A stretch of 64,000 nucleotides of DNA from Ectocarpus siliculosus. Taxonomy: Eukaryota; Sar; Phaeophyceae; Ectocarpales; Ectocarpaceae. Positions 12,701-53,457 of this stretch are shown in pieces (the stretch's first letter is position 1; every line of letters begins with the position of its first letter). The position numbers and the translations under genes are program-made. The notes below the pieces were generated by a model, which ran no database searches, was not told the DNA's origin, and saw only the letters and a program-made list of their open reading frames with translations. The stretch covers positions 8,784,813 to 8,848,812 of the forward strand of contig FN649727.1 of assembly GCA_000310025.1 (NCBI GenBank), given 5' to 3'.

Positions 12701-15700
12701 GGCCGCGCTGAGCACCTAGTTCGGAGCCATGTCGGACGTTCGCATGGGCTGAAACAGAGGCAGTCTTCAATAATATTGTCTTAACCTTATGTTAATCCCT
12801 TGCTCTCTAGGCAACATGAGACGAGCACTAGGCACCTGACAGCTCGGATTGAAGATTGATTCACATCGTCCATCCTAATTAATCCCCTTGCTCCCCCTCC
12901 CGCGCGCCGCCTTGTTTTTTTTTGTTCCTTTTTTTCTCGCAGGCAGGGAGCGTCCCTGCTGTCGTCCCCTGTCTCTCTGCGATTCTTCCTCCACCTCCAC
13001 CGCTACGGCGGTACCACCAGGTGTGCTTCTCTTTTCAGTTTGTTTGGGCGTTCTCGAGCGTCGTGTGCGGGTCGGCGGCGGCGGCGGGAGTGTTCTAAGC
13101 TCTGTCAGCCATAAGGGCGCTCCTGCGGCACCCGAAGGCCCGAGAGGTGGTTTGTTGTAATCGGTCTGCCGTACACGCCCGCGGTGCGCGTTTGAGAGCT
13201 TACCCCACGTCTGTGGGCAAGACTCCCGCCCGCCTGTTTCACACCGTTACCACTGTTTGGGCCTGCCTGTGGGTGTACGGCGTGGTGATGGCCTGACACG
13301 AACGGGCTCCGCGAGGTACACACCTCGCGCCATCCTCCCTGAACAACCGTCGCCCCCCCTCCCCAATCGAACCCCATGTCTTGCACCCCCCCCCCCCTTT
13401 CCCTCGTAGTCGTCTCCGGGGACAGCTGCAGTTTCCCTCGCACATGGGAAACGCCTCCGCGATGCTCTCGAGGACCGGTTTGCCCGCCCTACCGTTCCTG
13501 CAGCACGCGCTCCTGACGCACTGGGCGCTGTCCGGAAGGATGGGGAGGGCGTGGGGTCTAGCAGCTGCCGTGGTCGACATGGAGGCGTTCGTGCTGGGGA
13601 AGACGGGTAGGTCCGTCGATAGGTCAGATTTTCGCCTCGCCTTTTCTTTTATCTTTTGTATTCATCCGTGTTTCTCTACATAGCTGGCCAAAGGTTGAGG
13701 TTGGCTGTGATTTCCGAACCGTATCACCACGGGTCCATCTTTGACCATGGGACAATCTGTGACCCATGGATCACCTCTCCACCACTGGCTGCCGCACGCC
13801 TAAGTTGACAAGCAGCTCGGCTTGCACACGGGTGTGCGCGTGCGGCTCAGCGTACTATCCCCCTCTCCCCAAGCCGTAAGGTATTTTGAATAGCCCTCCG
13901 CGCGCCCTTCCTTCACCCTCCTCCCCCGCCTCTGCAGGTCCAACCTGCAAGGGCAGCGAGGATTCTGCCTCCAGACAACAGTCATCGTCAGCCAGACACA
14001 AGGCGACGCCCTCCTCTTCCTCTTGGTCGTCATCGCCGCCCACGCTGACGCCGACGCCCGTCCTCTCCCAGGAGAACTTGGACGTCTTCATCACCGCCGT
14101 GGTGAAGCTGTTGCCGGCAAGCCTCGCCCTGGCCTCGCCGCAAAAACCATCGGCGGAACCCCCAGGAACAAGTGTCCAAGGTGGCGCGACACGTAACGAT
14201 GTGACGGGTAGCGGAGTCGTGTACACCGAAAGTGGATCCAGAGTAAGGGGGCCCATCCCCGGGGTTTCCAGCAGCCCTTACGAGGAGCTGGAGTGCCTCG
14301 GCATGGTGCTGGAGTGCCTGGTGGAAGCGTGCATCGAGAGCCTGTACAACGGGGCGTGGTGAGTGAAAGGATGAGGATCAGGATCCCTCTTTGCAGGGGT
14401 CGTTTCTTGGCCTTGCCTTCCTGCTGGCCTTGTCTTTGCGACGGCGGTCTGTTTTGTCCCCCACGGGTGCATGGTGTCGTACGCCTTTTGACTCTGTCGA
14501 CCTCCCCGTCCGTCAATAGTTAAGTGTCGGTTAGACACAAAGTGTCCGGACGTCCGGATGGGACGCGCATGACCACTATGCTTTTTGGTTCCTGTGGCGT
14601 GTCGGGTGTTCGTCCAATGCGTTGTTGTTTCTCAGATCTAGAACTACCTATGGTCTATGCAGATCGTGGTCAAAATGTTGCTCTTTCTGTTTTTTGGAGA
14701 GAGATACGGGAGTCTGTCGTCGTAGCTCGCACTGACTGTTGTCGTTGTCTTCTTCAGAGCATGCTGGTAGAGTGGCAAACACGCTATTTACAACCGATAC
14801 CTCCTTCGTTTATGGCAGAAACCACGCCCCCCCCCCCCCTCGGACTCACTCGCCGCCGGGTGCACCTACTGATGGCCTTGCGATGTTCCACTTGGTCTTT
14901 TCGTGGGTCGTTGGCGGAACAGGAACTCATCTGCGGGAGCGGAAGAGCTAACAGCACTAGGCAGGCTGCTGCGGCGGTGCGTGCTGCCCGTGGCCTTGTG
15001 CTGCTCCAAGACCCTCAGGTAACGTACATGGTTTAGCCTCTTCTACTTCAGGTTGTTCATTTGTGTTCGTGTTGGTGTTTGTGGTTGTTTAGCAACCGAT
15101 GTCAAACCACTATTAGCCCAGTCAGCGTCACACCATGTGAACAGACAACATGAAACCATTACACCTGTCAGCATCAAACCATTTGACCAGACAACATCGT
15201 CAGCACTGACTGGTCGAATGGTTTTATTTGGGTTGCTAAAGGCTGCAGGCGGAGGTTTTGTCGCCCTGTAGTAGGTCACTCCTCTGCGCGGCACGCATTC
15301 TCTGGGTACATACGACGGCACACACGGAGCTTTCTTTCCGGAGCTTTCTGGCATGAGCTGCACTGTATTTTCCTAACGCCTCCTTCGCTCCGTCCTTGAT
15401 GGATGGAGGGCTTGCTGCTTTGCCCCCCAGGTCTTCGTATGAAGGCCGAAGAAACGCGTCGAGAATGTTCATGACGCCATGGCGCAGCTACATGTAGGAT
15501 GCCTGGTAGTGAATGGGGCCGCCGGTCCTTCCCAAAATCATGCACAATAGCCCTACACTCCAATGTATCCACACACGAAATATGTTTCGTGTTCCATGTT
15601 TTTTTATCCCGCTACAAGACCTGCGTCTTTTTAATTCGTGTGCCGGTTAGCGCAGTCGATGCTAATTCGAAAACACACGAAACGTTGGCTTTTTAGGGCG

Positions 15701-17157
15701 CTAGAGAGCCAACTGGAGCGAGCTCTCGCCTGGAGGTGTTCCCAAACGTTGGACGTGAATGGCGTGCGGGATAGGGGAAAGAGTGCTGCTGTCCCCGGCG
15801 GTTCAACCGAGGGGGTGGACTTTGGTGCGGCGAGGCTGTGCAGAGGGCTGCTGGAGCAATGCGATCTGTGTGCCGACGCCGTCAGGACGCTTGGCACGGC
15901 GGTGAGCCTGGCAGCGAAAGCGTGTGCTACAGCAAGTGGGCGCGGTGCAAGTGCCGCGTACATAGCATGGGCGCGGCTGAATTTGGCGACACGTGTGTTG
16001 GAATTTCAACCTATTTCGACCGTAGTTTTCGTCCCTCTCCGCTTCCATTACCTGGTGGCGGAGTGTTTGTTTTTTGTTTGGCGACATGCGACGTGGTTTC
16101 GATCTCAACACGTTGAAACTTTACTCTCGTCTGTCTTTCCCCCCCCCTTCCCGCTTTAGGTTCGCTCTGCGACTTTTCCTGAAGAGAAAGACGGGGGTGC
16201 AGACGCCCCCTCTGCCCTGAGACCCCACCGGACCGTTCGAGACCGCATCGTCAAGGTGACCGTAGAAACAGCAGCATACGGAGGTCCTGATTTATGCTGT
16301 CGCACGTGATGGCCACACCGTAGACTCCCTGCTGCGTGCCCCCCTCCCGCCATTGGTTCGTCGGGCGTGCATGCCCATCTGTTAGCGATGTCGCTGGCTT
16401 TATCCCGCCCTCTCTCTCCCCTTTTTCCACTCGCGTCCTCACTCTACATGCCGTGGCATGTCCGCCCACGAAAATTACCAGATCCTTCCCGGCGCGGTGT
16501 TGCAGAGCGATCAGCTCTCCGCCGCGGTGGATCACGCTCGCGGGGTGCTGCAGCTGCCGCGGAAGGCCGGGCGAGACGACGACGACGACGGGATAACCGG
16601 GGACAAAGACGAAGCGTCCCCTGGTCACAAGCTTCCCAGGCCGACGTCGAAAACCTCTAGTAGGAGAGGAGCGTCCGAGCGCCTCTTGTCGCGATGTGCT
16701 GCTGCTGCTGCTGCTGGCGGCGGCGAGGGGCAAGGAGGAGAGGTTGGGGGGATGGTAGCGGATACCCGGAGGGGAGGCGTCGTGAGAGGGAAGTTGGGAG
16801 GAATGAGGTTGTTGAGCCTTGGCGCAGAGCTGAGGGTGTCCTGGGCTGGAGTCGAGCCGTCCAACAAAGACGGGGGTCGCAGGTGAGCACGGCTAGAGCG
16901 GCACCTTAAGCGGGATGCTTCCCACCCACCCCCCAGTCTACGAGGACCGGTGTTGCAAGACAAGAGAAAGCAGGAAGTTAAAAGCATGATGTCACAACGG
17001 TGGTTCGGTGTGGCTTGGATAAGCATACTCCAGAGTAACTCGTGGTCATCCGTTGTTGGAGTTTTAATTGCCCAGCATCTCTCCCAACTTTCTGGCGATT
17101 CTGACTTCGTTTCCTAGGCTTGGAACCCCCGCCAGCAGAGAACAAGTGCTGCTGTAG
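129..17157 (+). CDS. FANCI: FANCI (Fanconi anemia group I) gene, 5'-incomplete, main copy
   Basis: FANCI forms a heterodimer with FANCD2 that is monoubiquitinated and clamps DNA during interstrand-crosslink repair in the nucleus. Exons whose splice phases agree: 129-308, 845-995, 1505-1716, 2118 to about 2364, 2754/2756-2887, 3444 to about 3559, about 4198-4328, 5059-5386, 6230-6277 (weak), 6852-7283, 7648-8169, 8711-9098, 9659-10119, 10465-10877, 11204-11366, 12324-12477, 12943-13020, 13410-13606, 13938-14358, 14923-15018, 15697-15901, 16160-16255, 16482-16882, 17118-17157. Matches remembered from animal FANCI, in order: VDEEDVPVVV; FLLLLPHRRHVAAVHSLLDK; ALDLLLELSENCPDL; RLLDKAARCLAVL; DAERKSAIVLATHLI; LFR-GTVKCSKALPILRKA; VLAALSAGLPRSEEAAVLSW; and PGAVLQSDQLSAAVDHA, against the C-terminal P-x-L-I-F-x-I-E-Q-Y block. 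The order is that of FANCI. The 3559/4198 junction does not agree in phase, so those edges are uncertain. An in-frame TAG at 17155-17157 ends the frame before the acidic tail found in the duplicate. Confidence 0.83.
3444..3559 (+). other. FANCI: FANCI exon with the monoubiquitination-site lysine
   Basis: This exon aligns with the segment of animal FANCI that contains the ubiquitin-acceptor lysine (K523 in human). The exon reads RLLDKAARCLAVL, then MNHVQKQVF; the lysine in VQKQVF lines up with the lysine of the human L-R-K-A-M-F context. The following exon continues with DAERKSAI, as expected from the human LDARKSAV that follows the site. The acceptor is a clean pyrimidine-rich cag at 3441-3443, in phase 1 with the previous exon. 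The donor (CAG|GTCTTC at 3560) is plausible but out of phase with the next acceptor, so the end is approximate. Confidence 0.7.
3858..3899. repeat. Heptamer tandem repeat (GGATATT)n
   Basis: About five copies of the 7-base unit GGATATT lie in a FANCI intron. Just upstream, at about 3694-3740, a TTG run changes into a GGT run. These are simple repeats with no coding role seen. Confidence 0.8.
4498..4660 (+). mobile_element. tRNA-derived SINE-like sequence in FANCI intron
   Basis: A perfect A-box (TGGTCTAGTTGG, 4498-4509) is followed by a perfect B-box (GGTTCGAATCC, 4542-4552), the spacing of an internal RNA polymerase III promoter. The cloverleaf is not good: the T-stem has mismatches and the 3' end does not pair with the 5' end, so a working tRNA is unlikely. 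A second A-box-like motif (TGGCCTAGTGG) starts at 4604, perhaps from a second tRNA-derived unit. A SINE fragment is the best reading. Confidence 0.45.
4815..5035 (-). repeat. Dispersed repeat, two monomers, related to 61.7-62.8 kb
   Basis: On the minus strand this stretch carries GTACTCAT next to a poly-C/G run, then blocks similar to CCCTACAAxGCCGGGAxGGA and GGTTCTCACCGGACCAG. The same blocks occur in plus orientation at 61,673 and 62,264. Two partly diverged monomers lie head to tail here, just upstream of the FANCI exon at 5059. The nature of the element is unknown. Confidence 0.6.
7520..7587. other. Assembly gap (68 N) in a poly-C tract
   Basis: Unsequenced bases are flanked by C runs on both sides, within the FANCI intron between the exons ending at 7283 and starting at 7648. 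In copy B the same place (about 42,947-42,966) is an uninterrupted C run of about 20, so the gap is probably a homopolymer that failed in sequencing. Confidence 0.95.
9150..9363. repeat. TC and GA microsatellites in FANCI intron
   Basis: A (TC)n run at about 9153-9191 is followed by an interrupted (GA)n run at about 9329-9363. The duplicate at 44,795-44,893 has an uninterrupted (GA)n of about 99 bases, nearly three times longer. Confidence 0.85.
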
Positions 17158-17499
17158 AGCAAGCTTGGAGGTAGTCAGGCCTTTGCCCCTACCCCTCTGG
17201 CCACGAGCGTGTCGTCGCTTGAAACCGGACAAGGAAAGTCTCGCTATCCTGTACTCCTATTTTGCAACATGGCGACGATGCATCCAACGGTCACGATCAA
17301 GGCTGCACCCAGTGCATAGTTTAGGCACGCGTCTTTGTACCATTGCGGTACATACGTGGTGGCACACTTTGCTTGATTGAGTGAACGGATGCCCCCCCTC
17401 CCCCCGCCGCGCGTCCTGTAATTTTGCCGATTTTTTTTCGCGACCGTTCGTTTTACGACGCTCCTTCCTCCAACACCCGAACGCCCTTCTCCCGCCTAG

Positions 17500-18025
17500 C
17501 AGAGAGGCAAGCACGCCATTTGCAGCAGCAGCACCGACGCTCGCTGCGCAATCATCGCGCCCGGCACCTTCGACTCTCCGTACTGCAGACTCGGTAGAAT
17601 GGCGGCGGCGACAGCAGGGGCAGCCCCACGGTGAGTCTCCCAACACAGCGACGAGCGGAGAGGCAGCCCAAGCCGTCACTCAAGGCGAAATTTTCGCCGG
17701 CACCAAGGTTAACGCCGTTGAGCCTTCTTCGTGGGTAGAAGAAGCGGCGGAAGGCGGTAGCAGTGCGGTAGAGAGAGCCGGTAGCGGTGGGGTGGGGCGG
17801 GGTCCGTCCTTTTTTCCGCGGGATGGCGCCGGAGGAAGCAGCAGCGGGAGGCTGGAGGGGGCCCCGGGGGATGAGGCGACCGGTAGTCGGATGAGCCCAG
17901 GGGATGGCGGCGACGTGCATGGAGAGGGTGGATTCGAAGCTTATGAAGAGGAGGAGGAGGGGGAGGAGGAGCAGGAGGAGGTAGACCAATTTCGGGTGGT
18001 TGGAGGGTGGGGCACTTTTTCGTAG
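17500..18025 (+). pseudogene. FANCI: FANCI acidic C-terminal tail exon, downstream of the nonsense codon
   Basis: The acceptor tag at 17497-17499 opens a frame of 175 codons ending at TAG 18,023-18,025. It is rich in Ser/Ala/Gly and ends in an acidic stretch (runs of E around 17,945-17,985) and a final WGTFS. The phase fits the exon ending at 17,237, but the TAG at 17,155 lies between it and the rest of the protein. In copy B (54,237-54,753) the same tail is reachable in frame. Animal FANCI also ends in a short acidic region, but this tail is far longer and not alignable. Confidence 0.55.
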
Positions 18026-19685
18026 GGCGGGGGACTGGCGCGAGGTTTGTGGCGTGACGGGTAGGCTGCTGCTGTAGGTAAGAAATTGTGCTGCCTTTGT
18101 CGGCATGGTTCTGCTGTTTTGATGTACCGCCGCGAGGCGGTTTTGCTTCAATTTTTTGCCGGTGGTGTTCAGTAGGTAAATTTGTGCCCCTTCTCAAACG
18201 TTGAGTGGTATACCGATTTTAGAAAAATGCAAGGTCTTGTCGCCGTCGCGACGTTTGGAGTGCGAAGTCTACATGTTGTGGAGCGGAACGTCCTGCGTTC
18301 AGTGTTTGACGCCACCTGCTTGCAACAATTTTTGGCCGGTCCAACTACAGTAGCAGGCTCGACGTTGCGAGGCACGGTTTCCTCTGTTCGCTCACTTAGC
18401 GTTGGTGATAAAGATGTTAAGTCGTTCCTATTGGTCACCATTGGGTGCCGCTGATTTCTGATTAGCCGAAATTGCATCAGTCATGTAGGAAACAATCTGG
18501 TGGTGTCTCGTGTCGTCTGGTGCTTGGGCAGGGAGTTACAGGGAGGGCAGCTAACGACGCTCGTCGTAGGGCGTTGCGGTGTAGACACATTAGCGTGGTG
18601 ACGGAGCCGACGTATGTACGATAGTGTATGTTGGCCGTCCATTTTTGCACAGCATGTGCAAAGAACCATGTGCAAAGAACACTGCTGTTGTGAGTTGTAG
18701 TTCTCGTCCTCATCTCGCCCCCGCGCTAGAAAATGACAAAACATGAAAACGTAAAGGTCGCCATCGGCTGTAGCCCGCGAATGTCACCCGCCCCGCGCTC
18801 GCCATCTCCCGTCATATTTCTGGCAACCCGAAGCTAGCAGCTGTCTCTTCGCCGTTACTTCTCATTGCCTACCACAACACGGTTCGACGAAGCCATTGAT
18901 GGAACACATTCATTCTCGTCTCTGTCTCAGCAGCTCTTGTCTAACGCACGGCGACAAGCTGTACCCAATATCTGCCAACTGCCGGTTTTACAAGGCCCAA
19001 ATGCTCAATACCAAAAGGTACAGCACGCCATGGCACCGCTGCACTGTACTCGCTCGTGATCGTAACCCAACAGTAATAACACAGAGTAAATGCAGGGCGC
19101 ATCACCACCACGTAATAAAAACGAACTTGTGCAGGAATGCATGCAAGAGGGAGAGAGCGGGTTCGCGACAACGGCATCCTTTTCAAAACACAGATAAGCA
19201 ACGAACAAGGTGTCCTCCTGAAACTGGGGGGTTTCAGTCACGACTAAAAAAATGTCACAAAAGAAATGCGATGTGATGTTTTCACAATTCCAGTATCACA
19301 AGATTATCCTTACCCGTCTTGCGCGTGGCTGTGTTTTCACCACCTTGCCTCACGGCTACGAAACACGTTGCCCTTGGAAGGGAGAATGGTCCCTACAATG
19401 TAGGTACGAAATTTAAGAGAAATCTCACGCCCAGTACAGCGCTAAACAAGCGCTGGGCCCAAAAAAGAGTACCATAGCCAAAGAGAACCATGGATGGGTC
19501 GTCATCGCCGACAACAACGAAATTTGCCAGGATTGTTCGACACCACAGGCAGTCGCCGTGAACGTGAGCCAGATATGCGACGTCAAGTTACACGTCACAC
19601 ATTTTCGCTCATGCGAGCTTCTCCCCTGTCTTCTTCATCGCGTCGGCAGTGACTGCTAACGCAGCCAGCGTCTTCCATCTCGTCC

Positions 19686-20284
19686 TCACCCCTGCAACAC
19701 ACGAAGTACGCCGAACATAGCATTCTCAGTTGTATTGTAGTGCCAGGCCTTGGCGCGATCGTCGTGCATAAGGCTTGCCTATAAGACGGTCCTAAGTGTG
19801 CACGAACCTTCTCTCGCACAAATTCCAGGTCACTCCGAGTCCCAACCGTGTCCGGGTGGTTCTCACCAAGCTTCTTGGTACGGATTCTGAGGGCCCTCTC
19901 CAATAGTGGAAATGCCTCCGTGTGCTTCTCCTGCGGGCAATTGAGACGCAGGGTTGAGGAACAAATCGGGTGTGCAAACGGTTTAACAACTGCCGCGATG
20001 ACTTTTTTCGTCCAAGCCATTGGCAACTGATGTCACCGTTCGTTCAGCAAGCCCGCCGGCTTAAGCCAATTCACGGTAAGACAACGAAGCGCCTCACCTT
20101 ATTGTCCCGAAACGTCCTGAGCATGCCACAAAACAAAACCGGAAAGTTGTTTCGAGATGGGCTGTCAACATCGCTGCCCGGTTGTTGAGCACCGTATGTA
20201 CAACATCCACAGGGCGCCAAGAGAATTATACTGGAAAGGTCTGGCGGCTCTCACCTGCACTCTCAACAACTCCGCCCGGTTGTA
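19686..20284 (-). pseudogene. Relic 3' end of an NB-ARC-TPR gene
   Basis: The last TPR exon (19,808-19,930, 41 codons; [20 protein letters not shown]) and the terminal exon with its stop (GGG TGA, stop at 19,686-19,688) are preserved. Only the last 10 codons of the next upstream TPR exon remain (20,255-20,284) before the sequence changes to GCP3. It matches 56,399-57,008 and, more distantly, 25,278-25,866. With no NB-ARC head and a single full TPR, it cannot make a receptor alone. Confidence 0.8.
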
Positions 20285-20339
20285 GATGTGCTGCAGAGTG
20301 CCCCACGAAGTCTCCAGCACCTCGAACATCATGTAGTTG
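20255..20339 (-). other. Chimeric exon: GCP3 head, TPR tail
   Basis: On the minus strand an acceptor (ttgcag) opens SNYMMFEVLETSWGTLQHI (GCP3) and continues without a frame break into [10 protein letters not shown], the last ten residues of a TPR exon, ending at an intact TPR donor (CAG|GTGAGA). The junction (20,284/20,285) lies in the right arm of the TPR palindrome. Whether the exon is transcribed is unknown. Confidence 0.75.
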
Positions 20340-21458
20340 CTGCAATGGGGGGGGGACGGTAACATGAGCCGAAAGCAGTAGCCATCAAGTCATTGGTCAT
20401 CGTGAAATGTGTGGTAAAGGGGTCGCTGGAGGAGACAGAATAAAGACAACGACAACAGCAACAGCAACAACAACAACAGCGGCGTTTACAGCAACCAAAA
20501 CAACAATGCGACGACCACAGCAACAAATACAACAATAGCACAGAGAGCACGTCACCGGACACCACAAGTTGCCTCAACCACAGCGAGCATACCAAACTAC
20601 AGAATTGAATCCGAAACAAGCGTGAGCTCAGGATGGTGGGAATGGAGATCACGCATCTGATGCCAGCACCGCCACACGCAGCAGTCACAGACACGGAAAG
20701 ACTCAGGAACCAGACCAAGCGCAGAAGCCTCCGCGACTCCGTTGTGACGCAAGAAGCAACACACATGGTGAAAACATGCCATAGGCCGTCGTGAGGAAAT
20801 TATATACGACTACTGAAGCAGGAGCGCGTGTGTTCGTCCGAAGCAAGCTCCAAGTTGGCAAGGAATGTACACCATACACGAGGTTCTCAAAATTCGAGTT
20901 CACTGCTGGTCGTGTCCCTACCGTCACCTACACACCGGGGGAGATTAGCTACATTGTACACGAGAGTTGTTGCAGTCCAACAGCGATAACGCCGCCGGCC
21001 CTTGTTGGCTGTTGCTTCCCAAGGAACATGACGCACTTTCATGTAGCAGAAACAGACCATCCAAAAATCGAAAAACAACGCACGAACGTATCCTGAATCG
21101 ACGAGGCTAGGGCTAACCTGAGTTTAGTGGTGAGGGAAAACATCTGTCCGCGAACTAGGCTGCACCGGTGCAGCGCGCCTTTCAGCTCCAGAAGGGCTTG
21201 CTCCAGCTGTCGTCCCATCATGTTGTAGAAGTATTGTGTTCGTGTTTCAAAACGCCGAGGCACCAAGGCCAAGTGAACAACCACCACAACACGACAGCAA
21301 AGGAAAACAAAGAACATCACGGAGCAACATGACGAGAGAGCCCAAGAAAACAACAAGAGAGTGGGCGCGGGTGATGTCGTCAGTCAGGGTTGACAAGAGC
21401 CAGTAAGGGGCGTGTTGGGTGTTGGTGCACCACGGCAGGCGCAAGAAAGTGTTTTTTT

Positions 21459-21460
<2 letters not shown>

Positions 21461-21547
<87 letters not shown>
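21461..21547. repeat. (TC)n microsatellite
   Basis: About 87 bases of uninterrupted TC dinucleotide, located between GCP3 exons. The open frames that cross it in several phases are artefacts of the repeat. Confidence 0.97.
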
Positions 21548-21552
<5 letters not shown>

Positions 21553-24500
21553 CCTATGTCTTTCTGTCTCCCTCTCGCTGTCAACATTCGGTGTTGCTCA
21601 CCCGGACGTGTGTGGCGCTTGTGTGCAGTCGCCAGGCCGAAGCCAGGCTCCACTCTGCCCGCTTGATACGCCAAAGCAGGTGGAAGAATCTTGGGTACTC
21701 GACTAGCACCTGAGGCACGAGACATCAGACACCGGGGATGGCCATTTGGAAATAGGCACGAGAAATGTGTCATGTCGTTAGAATACCCTCATGATCGACA
21801 TCGTCATCGGTCACACCGAAGCATCACCGACAACGTTGCCATCATGTCGACCTTGACTTCCATGGCAATACAACGTCAAGTTAAACATCCTGTTAACAGC
21901 AGTACGTTGCTGCAACAGCATGCACAACGCTTATTCGGCCCAAACACACCCTGACAAAAACATTCCCGAGGCGCAATTCATCAGAAAAACGGCAAAAAGG
22001 CCCCCAAAACACCCGCACTTCATCTCTTTGCGAGAACGGTGACCGTCCAACGCTTGTGACGACACCGAGAAGTGGTAGATGTTAACCTTGTAAAGGCTAT
22101 GGGACTCCCGCTGGGCTCCAAGAAGAGCGTTTCCTGGCAAGTCCAATTCATGCAATGATTGGGAAAAAAATAAACTTGTCAATACACGGCGTACTACTTG
22201 TACTGTATCATCACGGAGGTAGCACATTTACACTGTAAAATTCCGGGAGGTGCACACCTGCCGAGGCAAGGGGAAAACCACCCCTCAAAAGGTGCTTACC
22301 TCTTCCGTAACCACGGTCGAGACGGGAGCGCCTACATCGTACTTGAGCGAAAAAACATCCCATCCCCTGAGCGATGGAGAGGCAGGCATTGCCACACGAA
22401 CGAAGTCGTAACCCTAGGTTAAGGGGGGCCGAAGACAGGGGTAGTCGCGAAACAGTCATGACAAGGTGGTCATCAACGCCAAGAGATCCGTGATATGGGC
22501 TGTGTGTCACCCTAGTACTTGATCTGAGAGTGAATCTAGGCTCATGTTGACGCGGAAACAAACTTCTTCCACCGGGTGTGGTGTTACTGTTTGTGGTGCG
22601 TACTATCTCATGCGGGTGCGTCATCAGGCTCGCTGCGGGTTGGCTAATAAGGAGGACGTGGCGTTGGTCAAGTATTGGTAATACTTCGATAATAGTAGGG
22701 AGATGCAGCCGTCGCTAACCCAAGATACTGGGGTACAGTATGACGCACATTGAATCTACTCGAAGATCGCCTCCCGTCGAACCCAACCCAGAGAAAAGAA
22801 GCAATTAGCAACCAATAGTTCTCTTTATTCCTTACATCGCCCCCGGTGTCAAGTGTTGCAGTATTTAACCGTCGAGATCTTGACTCCGATCCTAATAGCA
22901 ACGTCTCCCGCTTCGTCCTGCAGGATGGCGCTGGTCTTGATCACGCCCTCGACTATCCCCATGACGTTGTGCCGGCAGATCACCGTGGCCTTCTTGTCAA
23001 GCTCTGGACCGAGCACTTCAATGAGGGTGAGCATGAGATCTCCCTGACATGACCAAGGCGGTTACGTTGTTGCCGAAGAAAGGTTAGACTGAAGCATGTG
23101 AAGGTGGGGTCAAGGTAGCGATTATCATCCAGCACCGCTTCGGAGGCAGCACCAACAATCAGCAGACATCACAAAGACCGAACTAGTACAGTAGCCAGCA
23201 TCAGCGTGATAGACAGGGTCATCATTGTACGTCACCAGGAAAAAGGTAAGAGGGGGCAGCATCGCAACCGTAGAGGACGCGGGTTCGAATCTCGGAGGCG
23301 CCACCAGACCTGGGATCTGTTCAAAACAAACATACAGCTAGGAACGGAGAAAGTCTGCTTCGCGGAACCTCAACAGTCGATTTTACGGTCGGCGCAGGAA
23401 AGGGACCGCTCCATCCATCCTTCTAGCCATAACAAAAAGATCGCACACACCGGAAGAGGTCTGTTGAGGTGGCATGTGTCCGCTGTCCGCTACCGCACGT
23501 TGGTCAGTGAATCTCACCTGTCCGTGGAGCAGGAACTTCTTGAGGACTCGAAGGTGCGACTTTAGCCGGTAGGGCCCGAGCATGAGGTGCACGAGCCTGG
23601 ATTTGGTCAAGGCGGAGCAAGACTCCACCACAGCCCTGAGGGATGTCGTGTTCCCGTATTCCAGCGTTGTGGCCTGGGCCGCTGCCTGCGTTCGGAGATT
23701 TCGGAGATTTGTGGGGGCTCTTGGTTAGACATGTGAGAGGTGTGAGTGGGCTGATGGAGATGCTCTACAAGTTGCTGAACGCCAGGCGGATAGGAAAATG
23801 TTGGAAAGTGATCGATCGCTATATTTCCTTTCGATGGACTCACATGATCCTTGATTCGACTGGCCCGGAAACTAAACATGCAGCTTCTTTCCTGGCGTGT
23901 GCTCTAAATAAAAAGCAAAACCCTTGTGGTGAAGAGACCAGATGGAAACCTAGCAGGCAATACTGATGTACCCATGATAGCTTCTCATTTATGGAGTCGC
24001 AATTGGGGTTCGCAAAGGCAAGCAGTTGAGTGGAAAACCACTTCACATGTACATGTACACAAGCGCAGCAAAGTGACATCTTACATAGATGCGTCCAACC
24101 AGCATCAAACTAGGCCGCAGCATCAACCAAAACTTCTTCAAAGCTTCGACTCGCTCAATAAAACGGCCCGGTCAAGGTCGTACAAGAACCGGAGCAACAT
24201 GCAGTGCATGTGCATGTGCATGCCCACTACAGCCTCCACCAGCAGCCATCATCCCTTGCTGACAGCCGCACCCGTAGCCTCGAGACAGACACCACCAACA
24301 GACAGAGACACCCACACGAAAGCATCACCAGCAGCGCCAGCGAACTCGCCTTGGCCATGGGCCCCGTGATCCACTCCGAGTTCCCGCACAGGTGCCTCAA
24401 GAAGTTGATGGCCTTTCCGATGGTGACAATCTTCACGGCCACCTCTTGCATGGCATAGTGCAACACATGGGGACGTCGAACACAAAAAAAAATCTATACC

Positions 24501-25866: not shown

Positions 25867-28800
25867 GGTTCTCACCTGGGCTATCAACAACTCCGCCCAG
25901 TTGTTGAGGTCTGTAGCGACCTCAGGGTGGTCAGGACCGTAAACTTTCTCGTCGATAGCCAGCGAGCGCCTGTACAGAGGCTCAGCCTCGTCATACTTGC
26001 CCTGGAATACAGTCCACGGCGTGGCAGGGTCGTTCTTCAGCACAAGTCGGGTCTAGAACTGCGGAGGATATTGTCTGCTTGAAGCTTCTAGAATACCGTT
26101 TGACTTTCATCTGGCTCATCAACAACCCCGCCCACGTTGTTGGGGTCTGTAGCGACTTCCGGGTGGTCAGGACCGAAACCTTCTCGACGATAGCCAACGA
26201 GCGTTTGAAAAGTGGCTCGGCTTCCTTATACTTCCCCTGGAATACAGTTGACAGCGTGGCAGGGTCGTATTTGTGTACAAGTCGGGTCTAGAACTGCGGA
26301 GGAACATTCACTTCTGGAAGCATCTCGAAGAATCGTTTGGTTCTCACCTGCGCTCTCAACAACCCCGCCCGGTTGTTGAGCGTTCTGGCTAGACTTGGGT
26401 GCTCAGGGCCTAGAGCCTTCTCCTCTATCGCCTGACACCGCTCATACAGTGGCTCAGCTTCCGAGTGTTTGCCCTGGATACAGTGAGGACAGCGTGGTGG
26501 AGTCGTATTTCAGTGAGAAGATCGTAAATGGGATTGTGGAGAAACATTTTCTCAACAACCCCGCCCTGTTGTTGAGCGCTGAAGCATAGTTAGGATGCTG
26601 TTCGCCAACTGTGGCACCTAGGATCTCCAGGACTCGGACATAGAGGGGGTCAGCGTCTTCGTACTTGCCCTACGGAGACGGGGACGCAGTGAGAGCGGTC
26701 AACATTAGTAAAACTAGCAGCGGAGGAACAATTGCTCAACAACCCCGACCCCGCCCTGTTGTTGAGCACTCCCGAAATCTATCGGGTACCACAAGAAACT
26801 TCCTGGAATTTTCTGATGGCTCTCACCTGCGCTCTCAACAACTCCGCCCGGTTGTTGAGTCTCGTGGCAAGATCTGGGTGGTCAGGGCCTAGCGTCTTCT
26901 CCCCAATCTCAATAGCTCGCAGATAGAGAGGGTCGGCTTCGTCGTACTTGCCCTGAAGTACGAGGGAAAAACACGACGGGGGCAACTTTGTCAAAACTAT
27001 GAATGGAGTGTAATGCGGAGGAACAATCGCTCAACAACTACGCCCGGTTGTTGAGCGTTGTGGCTAGACTTGGGTGCTCAGGGCCTAGAGCCTTCTCCTT
27101 TATCGCCTGACACCGCTCATAGAGTGGCTCAGCTTCCGAGTATTTGCCCTGGATGCAGTGAGGACAGCGTGGTGGAGTCATATTTCAGTGAGAAATTCGT
27201 AAATGGGGTTTTGGTGCAAGTGGGATCTAGAACTGCGGATGAACATTATTTTCTAGAACCATCTAGAAGCGTCGTTTGACTCTTACCTGAGCCTGCAACA
27301 ACCCCGCCCGGTTGTTGAACGTTGTGGCCAGACTTGGGTGCTCAGGGCCTAGAGCCTTCTCGTTTATCGCCTGACACCGCTCATAGAGTGACTCAGCTTC
27401 CGAGTGTTTGCCCTGGACGGAGTGAGGACAGCGTGGTGGCGTCGTATTTCAGTGAGAAATCGTAAATGGGATTTTGGTGCAAGTGGGATCTAGAACTGCG
27501 GATGAACATTCTTTTCAAGAACCATCTAGAAGCGTCGTTTGGCTCTTACCTGACTCTCCAACAACCCCGCCCGGTTGTTGAGCACCGTTGCGACGGCAGG
27601 GTGTTCCGGACCCAGGACCTTCTCTCGTATGGCTTGTGACCGCTCATATAGCGGCTCGGCTTCCTCATACTTCCCCTGAAGTACAGTCGACAGCGTGACA
27701 GGGTCGCGTTTTGGTGCAAGTGGGATCTAGAACTGCGGATGAACATTATTTTCTAGAACCATCTAGAAGCGTCGTTTGGCTCTCACCTGACTGTCCAACA
27801 ACACCGCCCGGTTGTTGAGCGCTGTGGCCACGTTCGGGTGCTCAGGACCTAACGCTGTCTCCCAAATCTCGGTCGCCCGCCTGTACAGAGGCTCGGCCTC
27901 GGCGAACTTACCCTGAGACGTGAAGGGCAAGCATGTCAGAAGTGTGGTCAATGCTAGCGGGGATTGACAACGGACTAACAATTGCTCAACAACCCCGCCC
28001 GGTTGTTGAGCGCTGTGGCCACATCAGGGTGCTCAGGACCTAACGCTGTCTCCCAAATCTTGGTCGCCCGCCTGTGCAGAGGCTCGGCCTCGGCGAACTT
28101 ACCCTGAGGGGCGTGAAGGGCAAGCATGTCATAAGTGTGGTCAATGCTAGCGGGGATTGACAACGGACTAACAAATGCTCAACAACCCCGCCCGGTTGTT
28201 GAGCGATACGGCCACATCAGGATGCTCTGGACCTAGCACCTTCTCCCGTACTGCCTGTGACCGCTCATACAGCGGCTCGGCCTCCTCATACTTCCCCTGG
28301 AATGGCGTCGACAGCGTGGGTCTTGTTTTAGCACAAGTGGGATCTAGAACTGCGGAGTAACACCACCTTCTAGAAGAGAATCTAGAAGCAATATTCAATA
28401 TTTGGCTGTCACCTGACTCTTCAACCACTCCGCCCTGTTGTTGAGCACTCCCAAAATCTATTGGGTACCACAAGAAACTTCCTGGAATTTGTGATGGCTC
28501 TCACCTGCGCTCTCAACAACTCCGCCCGGTTGTTGAGCTGCACGGCAACATCTGGATGCTCTGGGCCCAACGCCTTCTCTCCGATAACGATAGCTCTTAC
28601 GTACAACGGTTCCGCGTCGTCATACTTTCCCTGAGATATAAGGGAAAAGAGGGAGGAAGATGTGGTCATCGCTGTGTTGTTGAGCACTCCCGGAATCTAT
28701 CGGGTACCACAAGAAACTTCCTGGAATTTGCTGATGGCTCTCACCTGCGCTCTCAACAACCCCGCCCGGTTGTTGAGCTGCACGGCAACATCTGGATGCT

Positions 28801-31800
28801 CTGGGCCCAACGCCTTCTCTCCGATAACGATAGCTCTTACGTACAACGGTTCCGCGTCGTCATACTTTCCCTGAGATATAAGGGAAAAGAGGGAGGAAGA
28901 TGTGGTCATCGCTGTGTTGTTGAGCACTCCCGGAATCTATCGGGTACCACAAGAAACTTCCTGGAATTTGCTGATGGCTCTCACCTGCGCTCTCAACAAC
29001 CCCGCCCGGTTGTTGAGCGCTGTTGCCACCGCAAGATGATCAGGTCCGTATAATTTCTCGTGGATCGCAAGGGAACGTTCATACAACGGCCCTGCTTCGT
29101 CGTACTTGCCCTAAATCACGAGGGACGAGCGGGATGGGAGGTGTGATTATTGCTAGTTGAGGACACCGCGGAGGAACAAATGCTCTACAACCTCGCCCGG
29201 TTGTTGAGCGACGTAGCCACATGAGGATGCTCCGGACCCAAGACCTTCTCCTGTATGGCCCGTGACCTCTCATAGAGTGGTTCGGCCTCCGCGTACTTGC
29301 TCTGAACGAAAAACAGTGGGTTGTGTTAAGGGCAGTGGTTCACCCAGAAGGGAAAAGAACAAACATGGGTGGACGAATTCTGACCAGTCCTCTGTCAGCA
29401 AGAACGACGGTCACATGCTATCTGGAGAACATGACGCTCCTTCCTCTTCTTCAAAACAAGACGCTCATTCATTTGCCAGTTGGTGGGAGGGGGTAGCGTC
29501 GACGACAATTGAAAGATTGAAACAACTCGCCAACGCTTCGAATAACCTAGAGTTGCGAGCACGTTTGTCATCGAACGCCTTGCGAAAAACAGACGTTTTG
29601 TGTAGACGGAACAATATTTCCAACCGCACCATGTACAGCGACGCTACATCATACATCTCCGGAGGTTTCGCAGATCTGATGGGTGTGATGGACTTGACGC
29701 GCTCTTCCTTCCCTTGCCCATGTCTCACTCTTACAATAATACCAGGGTACACCTCGGTACTAGTTTTGTAGGCGGATTCAGGCGGGGCGGTACTTCAATG
29801 TGGCGGTAGGCGGTATTTCGTTTTCCGGCGGTACCGCCTTTGGTCGGTTCCCGGTACTGCCAATTATGGCGGTACTTCTCTGGCGGTACTGCAAAATGGC
29901 GGTTCTTTTTAGGCAGTTCCCGGTACTTCTTTTTTTGGCGGTACTTCTTCGGCGGTACTGCAATATGGCGGTACTGCAATATAGCGGTACTGCAATATGG
30001 CGGTACTTTTTTGGCGGTAGACGGTGTTTCGTTTTTCAGCGGTACCGCCTTCGGCGGTTCCCGGTACCACCGAATGTGGCGGTAATTACCGCCAGTACCG
30101 GGACCGCCCACCACGGCGGGAAAAAAATGGCGCAAATTTTCCCGAGGTGTACCCTGAATAATACAAGCAATCTTTCAGTCATTCCTGCGTGCAGAAACAC
30201 TCTCCACAAGAGCACGCGAGCGTCATTACGCACTACATGCGCTACACACTTTTCCTCGAATCTCGAAACTCAACCCGCACACATTTGACATCACCATACA
30301 GAACAAAAAACGTAGCGGCGATCGATGAAAGCGGTCGTGCGCGAAGCGCCCTTGTACTACACTAGACAACGAGCACCCTCCGAACAGTGCAGAATTCCCC
30401 CCAAAAAATCTGCCGTACCTGGATGTTGAACAAGAAACCTACAGACCCGTAGGATGTCGCCACGGCTTCCGTCGCCTCACAGGACTCCAACTCCTCGAGG
30501 CTGGCGCGATACGATGCAACCTCCAGCCCAGGGTCCCCCGAGAGCTTCTCCACCGAGCGCCAGAGGGCATCCAAAAAGAAAAGGCCTTGGTCTCCAGTGC
30601 CGTGCTCCGGGTCTCCGTAACTCTCGAGCACGTCCAGTCTCCCGAGGTACTGCGCCTGCAGCGCTGTGGCCTTTTTCACCGTCTCCTCCTCTGCCCTGAT
30701 GCTAGTCTTCGCAAACTCCAGGACCAGGTCGTGCACACGGTACCCACCACCTCCCACAGCGTGTAGAAGGCATTTGCTCACCAGACCCTCAGCGTCGTCT
30801 CGCGTACCCTCAGCGTCCTGCAGATACACGAAACACCGGGAATACATGAACTGGGGGTCAACATGCGGCACACTTCTAAGACCGTAGAAACCAGGGCATT
30901 TTCCACTCCTCTCTGCCGCACAACCCACTAACCGTGCCCGTACATCTACAACAGATGATTTGCAAACCGTTCCAAGACTTCCAACTACCTGGTAAAAGGG
31001 ACGCCCCAACGTACCTCTATCTCCCACAGATTGCGCAGCATCTCGATCGGTGCAAGAGCACCCGCGGCCAACACAGCCATCTTCAGGAACTCTTCTTGCT
31101 TCCGCACTGCCAACGAGTCGAAACTGGTCTCAAGGACCACTTTCATAGACGATGACTGCTCGCCCCGAGCTCGCATTTTCTTGGCCACGTTCTCCAACTC
31201 TTTGGCCAGCTCTTCCCAGGCGACGGCGGTCAAGCCCTTCCCTCTCACGACGGACATGGAACCCGCGATAGCGAGCACCAACGGTAGGTGTCCACAGAGC
31301 GCAACGACCTGGATCGGCGTTCGTCGGGAGTTGAATGCTCCGTCGAGTCAAGCACGATGATGAATGTCTTTGACAGCAGTGCATAACTCTTACATGTACA
31401 CAGGGCGCAACAGCTCTATGGAGGGCCCTTACCACACGGTTAACGCTCCCGACATGTATCGAAACTACAAGTTGAAGCGACTAAACAGAGAAGGCTCTAC
31501 GAGGAGATAGTTAGCGACGACATGGGTTGACCATCTACAAACACAAGTGCACGCACCACTCAACATCAAAGCCGTCATTGGTGTCATGCCTTTTTCGCGA
31601 CACCGGGAACGGAGGGCATGCAATCAGAGCAAACTGAAGCACACCAAACCAACCTCGACGTGCGTTGTTCGTCGCATAAACACCTGTGACACTCAGCATC
31701 ACGCCACCAACCGATGCTAAGCTCAACTCCAGGCAGCACTCGAGCAGACAACCAATGTATGAAACCATGCATCAGCAAAAAAACAAGCACACCCTGATAC

Positions 31801-32892
31801 ACCTTGTCGACCTACGATTCAAGGCGCATCCATCACCTTGGTCATCTTCGTCCGGACATCGTCACCAGGCTGACCCACAGCCCCGCTCGTCTTCCGCAGC
31901 AGCTCCAGCGCCTCTTCCTCCGTCACGTCTCCCAGCTCCAAGCGTCCGGCTGGCACACCAACAACCGACCGATCACGCGTGGTCAGCAGCACCTTGAACC
32001 CCAGAGGAACAAACGCATCCACGACCTCGCGCTCCCACACATCGTCCAGCACCACCAGGCGTTGGGAGGTGCCGGTGGATGTAACTGCAGCCAGATGCTG
32101 CCGCACCTGCTCGAGGCTGTCAAGGACGCGAGGAACCCCGCACGGAGCATCCGTCGGCGCCGCGCCCACGTCCCTGGCGAGGCCCTGGAGGAGAGCCAGG
32201 AGGCTGCTCTTCGCGCCCCTCCCCACTCTCACCCAGAAAATACCGCCGCGGAAGTGCTCCCTCACGCTCGGCTTGCGAACGACAGCAGAGGCCAGCACGC
32301 TCTTCCCCCCTCCACCCATACCGACGACGGTGTAGGGGGCACGGGACTCCTCCGGGGCGGTGAGGCCATCGGCAACTTCTTGTACCGCAGCTCGCTCCAC
32401 GTAGCTGCTGCTGGGCAACTCAAGCGCTCCTGCGGGAACTGCGGCCATGTCCGGCAAGCTTGGGGGGAGCAAAGAGGGAAGCGCCGCCAAGAACGACTGG
32501 TGGTGCTCCAGCCCGTCCACCAAGGCGATGTCGCTCCTTATCCTGCGGAGGCACTCCTCGAAGCCGGCGAGGGCGCTCAGGTCGGGACGATGGCAAAAAA
32601 ACGCCCTACACTTACCGCCCTTGGCCCACCTAGCCGCGAACCCTGCTAGCTCGTTGGTCGTGGCGACGAAGTCTTGGATGGGCTTCTGCACCTGGGCGAG
32701 GGGACCCACCGCTCGACCGTGCTGGATCAAGACGGTGGCGAGGAACGCGCACTGGGACACCAAGCTCTGTAGTTTGTCTTGGCATTCGGCTGCACCCTCG
32801 GCGGCCTCGATCAACGCCTTGAAGGCCTCGCACACAGGCACTAAGGGCCCGACGCTCGCAACACCGAGCACCCCAACTGCTGAGGTCGTCAT
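25278..32892 (-). CDS. NB-ARC-TPR receptor-like gene, complete, 14 exons
   Basis: A predicted intracellular STAND-type ATPase switch with a C-terminal TPR sensor, the architecture proposed for brown-algal pathogen receptors. Minus-strand exons: 31837-32892, 31015-31308, 30419-30817, then TPR exons 28985-29110, 28745-28870, 28505-28630, 27787-27912, 27550-27675, 27287-27412, 26827-26952, 26348-26473, 25876-26001, 25395-25517, and a stop exon 25278-25283 (GTG TGA). Every intron is phase 0, so the spliced frame is open for about 1,003 codons. Each TPR exon encodes 42 residues (the last 41) of kinesin-light-chain type: G-K-Y-x-E-A-E-P-L-Y, then L-G-P-E-H-P, then L-N-N-R-A-x-L-L-x-x-Q. Start: ATG at 32,890-32,892, the first Met of the open exon; an upstream exon cannot be excluded. 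Symmetric phase-0 modules can be gained, lost or swapped without breaking the frame. The ligand is unknown. Confidence 0.92.
26111..26236 (-). pseudogene. Decayed intronic TPR cassette with compensated frameshift
   Basis: Exactly 126 bases, like a normal TPR exon. The frame leaves the TPR pattern after AIVEKV and returns at AGLLMSQ, so two opposite indels have cancelled. The donor is ATGAAA instead of GTGAGN, so the cassette should not splice. Confidence 0.75.
26544..29301 (-). pseudogene. Donorless TPR cassettes in introns of the NB-ARC-TPR gene
   Basis: Five 126-base cassettes have a usable acceptor and TPR coding but no donor: 27,023-27,148; 27,978-28,103; 28,171-28,296; 29,176-29,301; and 26,544-26,669. 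In the first four the normal donor side is replaced, exactly at the left edge of the palindrome (plus strand), by ACAATTG, ACAAATG or ACAATCG, and an in-frame stop lies inside or a few codons past the palindrome. The fifth has CATTTT at the same point and stays open further. Short palindrome-only remnants occur at about 26,733-26,766 and 28,413-28,450. They are either skipped or act as chain-terminating alternative last exons. Confidence 0.75.
28441..28984 (-). repeat. 240 bp tandem duplication carrying one TPR exon per unit
   Basis: Units at 28,441-28,680 and 28,681-28,920 are almost identical, with the intron spacer of a third unit beginning at 28,921. Each contains a complete TPR exon (28,505-28,630 and 28,745-28,870) plus its intron. 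A 193 bp tandem unit with donorless cassettes lies nearby at about 27,911-28,296. Confidence 0.9.
29743..30156. mobile_element. hAT-type MITE with 8-bp target duplication
   Basis: Terminal inverted repeats CAGGGTACACCTCGG (29,743-29,757) and its complement (30,142-30,156) are flanked by a perfect 8-bp duplication AATAATAC (29,735-29,742 and 30,157-30,164). The interior is an array of GGCGGTAC-like units with no transposase. It sits in the intron between NB-ARC exon 3 and the first TPR exon. The 8-bp duplication and CAGGG ends are typical of the hAT superfamily. Confidence 0.85.
30419..30817 (-). other. NB-ARC exon 3: winged-helix/ARC2 and linker to TPRs
   Basis: The exon begins [18 protein letters not shown] and contains [11 protein letters not shown], equivalent to the MHD motif region of NB-ARC proteins (V in place of M). 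About 95 helical residues then lead to FLFNIQ and donor GTACGG. It links the switch to the first TPR exon. Confidence 0.88.
31015..31308 (-). other. NB-ARC exon 2: GLPL-equivalent and ARC1 region
   Basis: The exon opens [18 protein letters not shown], the counterpart of the GLPL motif of plant and animal NB-ARC proteins. Helical ARC sequence follows, ending NLWEIE at donor GTACGT. It joins exon 1 in phase 0. Confidence 0.9.
31837..32892 (-). other. NB-ARC exon 1: N-terminal helical domain and nucleotide-binding core
   Basis: Residues 1-150 form a helix-rich N-terminal region without a recognised TIR or classical coiled-coil signature. The P-loop is GMGGGGKS (about residue 190). Kinase-2/Walker B is RLVVLDDVW (about residue 280) and RNBS-B is [11 protein letters not shown]. 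The exon ends KMTK at donor AAG|GTGATG. The P-loop lysine and the two acidic Walker B residues are present, so ATP binding is plausible. Confidence 0.93.
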
Positions 32893-42520: not shown

Positions 42521-43170
42521 GTAAGAGGAGGAGGGAGGGAGAGGAAGCCATGTGGACAACGGAACGACATTCGCCGGGCCACTGAGTAGAGGGGTCTGGT
42601 ATGTTTGCGTCCGGGCCGGTCGAAGACAGCGGCTGCTACTGGGGGTTGGGCGGAGGGATTGATGGGCAGGGCGGGGGGTACTCGCTGTGGAGGATTCCGA
42701 CGGCCGAGTGCGCTTGGCAAGGTGCCCGTGTGGGTGTTCTGGTAGTGAAGTGTTATAGCCATCTTGTGGGATTTTTGCATTGCTTGCGTGCGCGGCGCTC
42801 CGGTGCGACAGGCGGACTCGATTTTTCCGTCGCCTGCCTGTCGCAAAATTTCTTGTTTTCTTGTTTTGTGCTACAAATACTCTTGAGGAGTGTTATTGCG
42901 TTTCTCAACTCCTCTCACCTCCTCCCCACCCAGCGATACCCATCGCCCCCCCCCCCCCCCCCCCCCATTCAAAAACGACAACTTTTTTAAGGGAACCCCC
43001 ATCATGAAGGGAAAGCACGCAGCAGCTGGTGGAAGCGGGCGCGGCGTGCGTGGCCGCCAGGTCCCTTCTGTCGTCCGCCGCGAAATACCTCCGTGCCCAC
43101 CTGTCCCCCACCGGAGGTAGCCCGCTGCTGCCCGAGACCTTCGCGAAGGCTACCAGCAACAACCCACGCA

Positions 43171-43206
<36 letters not shown>

Positions 43207-44565
43207 TCTATGGCAGCCGCGGAGCACGACGAAGCCACGCCGACGCGGACAGCAGCGATACCGGAGGCGTAGTCGACCTCAACGCGGGGGAGGCATCAGG
43301 CCCGGGGTCCTCCTCTCTTCTCTCCGACCTCGTCTGGCGCTACCCTGAGCTCGGAGCAAGAGGCAGGGTTTGTGTCGCCGCGCTCCGCCGGACCGCGCGA
43401 CAGGTAGCTGGAAGTGGCGGCGGCGGGGGTAAGGGCGGTGGTTCGGCGGGGGTTAGGGGCTCGGCCGCCTCGACGGAGGGGGATGAGGAGGAGGAGAGAG
43501 CGGCGACGCGGCTTGAGGGAGGGCTGAGCCTGGGTGAGGACACTCGTGTATGCCCGCGCGGCATATGGGGGGGGGGGGGTCACGGAGCCTTGCGGAGAGC
43601 TGACTATAAAGTCGAGACTGTACCGTGGGACTCCGTTCTCGCTAGGTCGTTCTGGGCGACAGACTGGAGTCGTGGTTGCATCTATTGGACAATCCAATAC
43701 CTACTGGGGTGTAACGTCGTATTTTTACCTGCTGGCACTGTTTGTCCATGTGCAACAGTAGAAATTTTATTCTGGGCGGCGGCAGGTGGGATGCCGCCTC
43801 TCGTGGTGTAGCAGGTATGTTTAGGTCCGACGGCTAAAACGACACGAAGTTACCGGTTTCTCGTGGATTGCTTCTCGTTCTCGGTCATGGGAGATGACGA
43901 CCTCCGTGCTCTGAGAAGGGCGGGGGAACATCTGTCGGGTCTTGGTTCCTAGGTTCACTTAGTTCTGTCGCTCGTTCTTCGTCTCGTCTTACCACTTTTC
44001 ACGCCACAACATCGTTACCGTTCTCCCCGCACGCCATGTCATGTCACGCTCGTACGACCTAAAAAAACAACCCATCAAGAGTTGATGCCTCTGGAGTGCT
44101 TGTGCCGCCTCGTCAACGCCGACGTGGAGAACTACGTTATCGCCACCTCAACAGCGGCGATGGCAACATCACCAACGACGGCATCGTCACCCCGAGGCGA
44201 GGAAGAAACGTCGAGCACCAGCAACGGCCGCTACGTCGAGAAGAATGACGGAAGATGCCGGTCAGCAGAGGACACAGCAATGGCAACCTCCACGACAGCA
44301 ATGGGGAGTCTCATGGACGGCGTGAAGACACCTTCTGTCGTGCTCGTGGCGTACGTGGAGCTGCTCAGGACGCTTGTCACACGCCTCGAAAGCGGCGGTG
44401 CTCGCGAGGGGGGGGCGGCCCTCGAAGAAGGGGGGGCGGGCGGTGGGGGGCCCGCGGGGGTGGCGCTGGGGGTGCGGGCGCTAGACCTGGAGACGCTGTT
44501 TCGGTGAGATTTGGGGGTCTATCGTGTTGTAAGGGTCACCTTCCTCCCTCCCTCCCTCCCTCCCT

Positions 44566-44596
<31 letters not shown>

Positions 44597-44791
44597 CCTC
44601 CCTCCCCCTCTCTCTCTCTTTTTCTCTCGCTTTCTCTCTCCCTCCCTCCCTCCCTCTCTCCCTCTTCCATGTATTGCTGGACTGCGAGTTGCACGCGTAG
44701 CCTGTCCGTTTCCGTGCCGTGAGAGAACGATAGCTGTGTGCCGCTTCGAAAAGGATGCCTAGAATGGGTTGACCTACAGTTGTCACGAGCG

Positions 44792-44896
<105 letters not shown>

Positions 44897-45035
44897 CTTG
44901 TTGCGCGGCTTTCGGCGGTGTATCGACCGGGGGGCCGAGCGTGTTTTGTTAGGGCTGCAACGGCGGTGTGGATGTATCATATCGAAACTTTCTTGTTCCT
45001 TCTCGTTATCCTGGCCGGGTAGATTTTCACCCTCA

Positions 45036-53403: not shown

Positions 53404-53405
<2 letters not shown>

Positions 53406-53453
<48 letters not shown>
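53406..53453 (+). repeat. Polyalanine-coding (GCT)16 tract in FANCI duplicate
   Basis: Sixteen consecutive GCT codons in the exon 53,190-53,620. The main copy has six at 16,697-16,714. The 30-base difference keeps the frame. Confidence 0.9.

Positions 53454-53457
<4 letters not shown>

Follow-up and report, generated by a model that had tools for sequence, protein, structure and literature searches.

A 26-nucleotide coding block as the probable site of exchange between NB-ARC-TPR exons of Ectocarpus siliculosus

Two arrays of short exons encoding tetratricopeptide repeats (TPRs) lie within a 64,000-nucleotide (nt) stretch of the Ectocarpus siliculosus genome (C2:8,784,813-8,848,812, referred to here as the window). 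The first array (25,876 to 29,301, minus strand) was placed by profile matches and layout and has an open reading frame with an NB-ARC domain upstream of it (31,819 to 32,892, minus strand; Pfam PF00931, E 2e-18); the second (56,882 to 61,248, minus strand) was placed by profile matches. We found that exchanges between the heads and tails of such exons concentrate in a 26-nt block close to the exon end. We assign a probability of roughly 0.72 to the explanation that this block is the exchange site of NB-ARC-TPR exon heads and tails, likely through homology between its copies, and that its palindromy is probably a by-product. An earlier note on this DNA had described the palindrome and the rearrangement junctions that coincide with it and had proposed that the palindrome itself causes breaks.

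The intact TPR exon is 126 nt long, or 42 codons, is bounded by phase-0 introns, and encodes the protein pattern GKYxEA...LNNRAxLLxxQ (for example, 26,827 to 26,952, minus strand). Both the length and the intron phase are uniform. From 31 merged segments (226,732 bases) we gathered 214 exons of exactly 126 nt, 213 of them distinct; the exon search itself required this length, and profile matches give the same span. The sample is part of the family, as 150 of 564 candidates were scored in the underlying search of the genome (189 Mb, 492 contigs). The block, CTCAACAAC and GTTGTTGAG separated by 8 nt, occupies exon nt 94 to 119 and comprises eight codons (L N N R A x L L) and two further bases, ending seven bases short of the exon end, directly ahead of the donor (for example, 26,834 to 26,859). 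The reported palindrome was confirmed: the exact pattern occurs 33 times genome-wide and 15 times in the window (nine copies in the first array and six in the second), and the reversed pattern does not occur. When up to three mismatches were allowed, 275 + 297 matches were found versus 34 + 33 for the control, with places known for the first 100 among the matches listed. The block or a variant is present on 17 exons or exon ends of the first array, which is made up of nine exons with a GT donor, one with AT replacing GT, five without a donor, and two solo blocks.

To locate exchanges, we defined a cassette as 80 nt of upstream sequence, the exon to nt 119, and the 100 nt from nt 120 (n = 311, 54 with indels), and a strict mosaic as a cassette that matches one cassette over its left 36 nt and a different one over its right 36 nt, neither of the two being related to it on the other side. 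Seventeen strict mosaics were identified, seven of them in the window. The midpoints of their breakpoint intervals fell within nt 94 to 119 in 15 cases and within nt 83 to 119 in all 17. Simulated recombinants with uniform breakpoints were detected in 1,102 of 1,500 cases, fairly evenly along the cassette, and only 10% and 15% of the detected events fell in these two ranges. The clustering has a P value of about 1e-13 if the mosaics are taken as independent, but several are reciprocal or related. A gapped BLAST method covering 38 arrays (129,651 bases) yielded 22 junctions, 15 of which lie at nt 90 to 109; nt 90 to 119 make up 14.7% of the bases covered. Among the seven junctions elsewhere, three fall within a single intron, 326 nt long and itself built of stacked block remnants. 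The enrichment of exon junctions near the palindrome that the earlier note had asked about is therefore strongly positive for head/tail exchanges. Because mosaic parents sit in different segments, TPR exons have been swapped between genes.

Mosaics in the window include the exons at 27,787 to 27,912 (minus strand; breakpoint interval nt 93 to 110) and 28,985 to 29,110 (minus strand; nt 93 to 120) and a donorless exon at 27,984 to 28,103 (minus strand; interval at nt 88). Breakpoint intervals are up to 27 nt wide because the parents match across the block. Three of them are mutually non-overlapping (e.g., nt 83 to 88, 104 to 109, and 113 to 118), which speaks against one fixed breakpoint nucleotide. 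In the first setting, the cycle rank was 7 to 9 at splits 100 to 120 and fell to 0 at splits from -30 to 50 and from 140 to 170; nine other settings gave profiles of similar shape. Simulated uniform events also gain more at splits 100 to 120, so this profile is not our main test. Exons encoding leucine-rich repeats (LRRs), examined as a palindrome-free shuffling control, showed no cycle at any split, with too little power in 45 exons from 3 regions.

We then asked which parts of an array are inherited together, using an index equal to the number of pairs sharing both parts divided by the number sharing either. The 214 usable block records of 387 are those in which head, tail, next acceptor, and next head are all present. 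The head and tail of the same exon, 33 nt apart across the block, gave an index of 0.07 to 0.12 with 5 to 8 independent cycles, and an exon's own head and the next head, which span the block, gave 0.06 to 0.12 with 5 to 16 cycles. The acceptor and next head, likewise 33 nt apart, gave 0.33 to 0.50; the tail and next acceptor gave 0.37 to 0.38; and the tail and next head, on either side of the intron, gave 0.19 to 0.31, all with 0 cycles. Co-inheritance is lower across the block than across a splice site or an intron, and the moving unit is therefore an exon tail, the intron, the acceptor, and the next exon head. The shuffled unit thus runs from block to block. Among 51 block-to-block cassettes from 11 arrays, the five copies of one family (F0) show four kinds of right neighbor, and the four copies of another (F2) have four neighbors on the left and four on the right.

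We propose that copies of the block interact through ectopic homologous recombination, gene conversion, or template switching and that a repeat's head is thereby attached to the tail, intron, and next head of a different repeat. The part of TPR helix A that the block presumably encodes is its conserved first half, and with the cut located there, a chimeric repeat would keep its frame and likely its fold; the variable positions on either side of the block would be reassorted. Palindromy would then probably be a by-product of the codons for LNN (CTC AAC AAC) and LL (TTG TTG). Repeated exchange may keep the block uniform, and uniformity may in turn keep it exchangeable.

Shared sequence is sufficient to explain the exchange sites. 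Of all bases that 19,073 pairs of unrelated cassettes share in exact runs of at least 10 nt, 34% lie in the block and 24% in exon nt 1 to 26; for runs of at least 16 nt, the values are 63% and 14%. In 12 of 17 mosaics, the presumed parents, which are the nearest extant relatives rather than the true parents, share a longest run that overlaps the block, and the 15 of 22 junctions found by the gapped method are consistent with the 63% expected from homology (P = 0.40). Homology also predicted switching better than hairpin energy did. Over 311 cassettes, the log-likelihoods were -200.2 for the null model, -183.9 for hairpin energy, -173.6 for homology, and -171.4 for both; for 133 cassettes with recent relatives, they were -65.7, -61.5, -58.6, and -58.3, respectively.

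Several observations weigh against exchange by homology at the block. The presumed parents share their longest run elsewhere in 5 of the 17 mosaics. The 15 of 17 strict mosaics slightly exceed the 63% that homology predicts (P = 0.02), and no strict-mosaic breakpoint lies in exon nt 1 to 26 despite the 14% of long runs found there (P = 0.08). Hairpin energy adds slightly to homology over the 311 cassettes, and in the top third for homology, switched cassettes have stronger hairpins (-6.1 versus -4.4, P = 0.0004). The number of independent mosaics is below 17, given that some are related or reciprocal. Finally, the uniform codons of the block could be kept by selection on splicing or translation.

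This last point bears on a different explanation, in which the silent sites are maintained by selection on RNA, for example as a splicing enhancer ahead of the donor, and exchange is a side effect of the resulting identity. We compared codon usage in 80 head-family representatives with that of the same amino acid elsewhere, taking the Leu reference from codons 1 to 30. L32 is CTC in 55 of 75 cases, compared with 33 of 230 reference Leu codons, and TTG is found at L38 in 42 of 55 and at L39 in 56 of 72, compared with 40 of 230. AAC encodes N33 in 50 of 56 cases and N34 in 59 of 63 (24 of 39 in the reference). The loop codons are equally biased: A36 is GCG in 54 of 72 cases (72 of 323 in the reference), R35 is CGG in 33 of 53 (29 of 133), and G37 is GGG in 21 of 31 (30 of 191). 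It is therefore the sequence of the whole block that is uniform and not its symmetry. This uniformity in stem and loop, together with the position of the block 7 to 33 nt before the exon end, is compatible with selection on RNA. The block of non-intact exons decays about as the head segments do, a result that fits selection on RNA and exchange by homology alike. We regard selection on RNA as possible but tentative.

Two other interpretations of the block's uniformity were rejected. GC-biased gene conversion as the source of the codon bias was ruled out, since the block prefers TTG over CTG and CTC over CTG. The block also appeared to resist decay in dead exons in a first test (83 frame-broken exons among 104 donorless ones), but this test was biased, as hits had to reach nt 112. 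The effect disappeared when exons were picked by other parts: the fraction of conserved sites fell from 0.90 to 0.82 in the block and, in the same comparison of four head segments, from 0.93 to 0.86, 0.90 to 0.84, 0.95 to 0.76, and 0.95 to 0.94.

A further explanation takes the palindrome as the signal, with hairpins at exon ends stalling replication or being cut and repair joining heads to tails. As single-stranded DNA, the 26-mer folds at -8.9 kcal/mol (z = -4.9), and folding energy along the cassette is lowest at the block, to which the mosaic breakpoints map (mean for 50-mers, -6.8 versus about -2.9 to -5.7 elsewhere). Block hairpins are also stronger in mosaics (-7.4) than in all cassettes (-3.9), in line with the difference seen in the top homology third. 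There is a precedent in Plasmodium var genes, a receptor-like multigene family for which ectopic exchange near DNA of low folding energy has been reported (PMC3936766). In the TPR exons, studied here by sequence analysis, the exchange sites can be explained by the block's homology alone. Hairpin energy and homology are confounded (Spearman, -0.55), and hairpin energy adds little to homology, with almost nothing gained by adding it for the cassettes with recent relatives; structure may nevertheless play some part.

Pairing itself was examined in the 213 distinct intact exons, where the palindrome is graded: 17 pair at nine of nine arm positions, 33 at eight of nine, and the remainder at fewer. 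The mean number of paired positions was 5.93, compared with 5.81 when arms were re-dealt (reached by 1 in 2,000 shuffles), and the 17 perfectly paired exons compare with 11.5 (reached by 1.5 in 100 shuffles). For the 80 head-family representatives, arm pairing was 60.6% versus 58.4% (P = 0.0025). This excess is small and of a kind that related exons can yield. The arms scarcely covary: 268 changes affect a single side, and of the double changes, 21 preserve a Watson-Crick pair and another 21 fail to do so. Pairing is hardly conserved as such. Together with the equal bias of loop and stem codons, these results give the proposal that the palindrome itself causes breaks no support over plain homology, and we consider a palindrome signal unlikely. 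A more elaborate version, in which the block is both a selected hairpin-forming exchange signal and an invariant TPR helix code, so that the alga reassorts receptor repeats block to block, possibly also somatically, and new receptors arise from cassettes that carry introns, appears quite improbable.

Exchange by homology at the block has also to be set against a reading without any exchange hot spot, in which a few ancestral rearrangements were copied by ordinary duplication. The relevant evidence comes from exons that lack a donor. Many TPR exons stop at about nt 119 without one. As the earlier note had described, ACAATTG or ACAAATG and CATTTT join the left edge of the block (plus strand) in such exons, CACTCCCGAAATC and CACCGTATGTAC join the right edge in headless tail pieces, and a fusion of TPR and GCP3-like sequence and the end of a segmental duplication fall at the block as well. 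These positions are real, but not all of them are separate breaks. A canonical donor is absent from 160 exons or exon ends, of which 48 carry TTGTTCCTCCGCA downstream (scored with up to three substitutions) and 112 have no recognizable motif. TTGTTCCTCCGCA starts 2 to 4 nt past nt 119 in 39 donorless ends from 19 segments and at 41 to 49 nt in 9; in exons with a canonical donor, 38 of 234 carry it, at 22 to 61 nt and most commonly at 47. That the offset is the same across 19 segments speaks for a single ancestral deletion, since inherited and shuffled; independent deletions ending at an identical position are less likely. Where they can be aligned, donorless exons, which made up much of the earlier note's evidence, thus share one junction. 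Copying of one or two events, the outcome that the earlier note named as counting against its proposal, would account for these 39 ends and leaves the 112 motif-less ones aside.

This shared junction, the long duplications, and a recent-looking 240-bp tandem duplication of one exon cassette (28,436 to 29,018, 98.5% identical) favor a reading without a hot spot. For the head/tail switches, it is contradicted by the reassortment, which requires at least 5 to 8 independent cycles at the block but no cycle across a splice site or an intron, and by the presence of strict mosaics in segments of C2, C6, C10, and C458. We consider it very improbable. Least probable is an assembly artefact in which repeats were misjoined at the block: the arrays are repetitive and the window has two runs of N (7,520 to 7,587 and 61,620 to 61,653), but neither run is within the TPR arrays, the contig is 9.3 Mb long, and mosaics occur in several segments.

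Under exchange by homology at the block, the donorless exons would be inherited, probably as skipped or dead cassettes carried along by shuffling, and the presence of exon ends and dead exons within introns of NB-ARC-TPR genes would also be accounted for. Some donorless exons have an in-frame TAG inside the block (29,183, 59,771, and 27,148 in the window), and use of GTTAGT as a donor in some donorless exons would break the frame, as read by eye. A short headless unit, consisting of a donor, about 55 nt of intron sequence, GGGAGTG, and the next block, occurs in stacks and between differing neighbors, and it gives rise to the CACTCCCGAAATC junction. That junction is seen in a solo block within an intron (26,735 to 26,774, minus strand), where a headless tail is joined to a donorless tail. 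A solo exon end with a donor (nt 91 to 126) lies within an intron at 28,413 to 28,448 (minus strand).

Related arrangements were seen outside the window. A region at C10:3.22 Mb (L037, C10:3,223,701-3,227,300) has live TPR exons alternating with donorless ones about every 330 bp, which makes the introns of this region mostly dead exons. In the C2:8,306,094 segment (local 6,591 to 7,053 and also the 326-nt intron that follows exon 3,366; overlapped by L001-L031), units of 88 to 94 bp that comprise an exon end, donor, and intron start are stacked, and one intron holds several donor sites. Fragments without a block, in which the exon runs to about nt 90 and is followed by GCATTTGTT as if the block alone had been deleted, occur in segments C6:3,472,316, C6:3,494,001, C24:1,953,001, and C464:389,192.

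In the GCP3-TPR fusion, a GCP3-like exon runs in frame into the end of a TPR exon (20,255 to 20,291, minus strand); it adjoins a GCP3-like gene piece at 20,291 to 24,448 (minus strand). An unfused copy (C2:8,291,280-8,295,584) matches the window piecewise from 24,448 down to 20,291, beyond which the unfused copy continues as AAGAGCCTCGAC and the window continues as CACATCTACAACCGGGCGG, the TPR exon end, in frame. The reported fusion is real, but its placement at the block needs adjusting: the block edge is at 20,287, and GCP3 similarity stops some 4 nt short of it, at about 20,291. A segmental duplication (7,175 to 20,283, partner 42,613 to 57,007) has both right ends inside a block, and its common tail is joined to a TPR head at 57.0 kb and to a GCP3 head at 20.3 kb. 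The joint represents one event and fits a head swap at the block or within a few nucleotides of it. GCP3-like copies adjoin TPR arrays on the same contig at 20,291 to 24,448 in the window, at C2:8,291,280, and at C2:8,315,170.

Integron gene cassettes offer a comparison, since their attC sites form a common inverted-repeat-like joint between cassettes whose neighbor order is free. The TPR block resembles attC in these respects but differs in being coding and in being itself shared homologous DNA; no recombinase is known for it, and no search aimed at one was made. Exon shuffling in candidate NB-ARC-TPR immune receptors of brown algae has been proposed since 2012 (Zambounis et al. 2012 and Teng et al. 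2023, cited in PMC11378527 and PMC7317505); as these sources describe them, the genes have NB-ARC-coding sequence beside TPR exons that are uniform in length and move among loci by shuffling. The window agrees, with NB-ARC coded beside the TPR exons of the one gene examined. The joint is placed here inside the exon, and the unit is an exon tail, intron, and next head. No title or abstract in our literature search, which did not extend to Zambounis et al. 2012 or Teng et al. 2023 themselves, named a joint position in brown-algal TPR exons. The joint location would be the new element: exons would be shuffled by cuts made inside them, and the intron would travel with the head of the next exon. 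PMC11378527 gives both somatic recombinants and site-specific recombinases as unreported. Confining the joint to one 26-nt coding block gives long reads, pedigrees, and assays something definite to aim at. Tetrahymena LRR exons of 90 bp are similar as fixed-length repeat-coding exons multiplied by ectopic recombination, but that report (PMC6564038) describes phase 2 introns and proposes help from retrotransposons, compared with phase 0 and an exon-end block here.

A search with the COR-A family for ROCO genes gave a single match, barely over the cutoff. Just upstream of the first array (29,780 to 30,130), a degenerate tandem of GGCGGTACT-like units was seen by eye. LRR exons of the 72-nt phase-2 type described for brown algae in PMC11378527 were found at L068 (C477:54,000-57,600), L069 (C26:5,006,901-5,011,200), and L070 (C15:2,424,201-2,428,900). 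Such exons lie on both strands of single loci, and some are identical on opposite strands, as if inverted.

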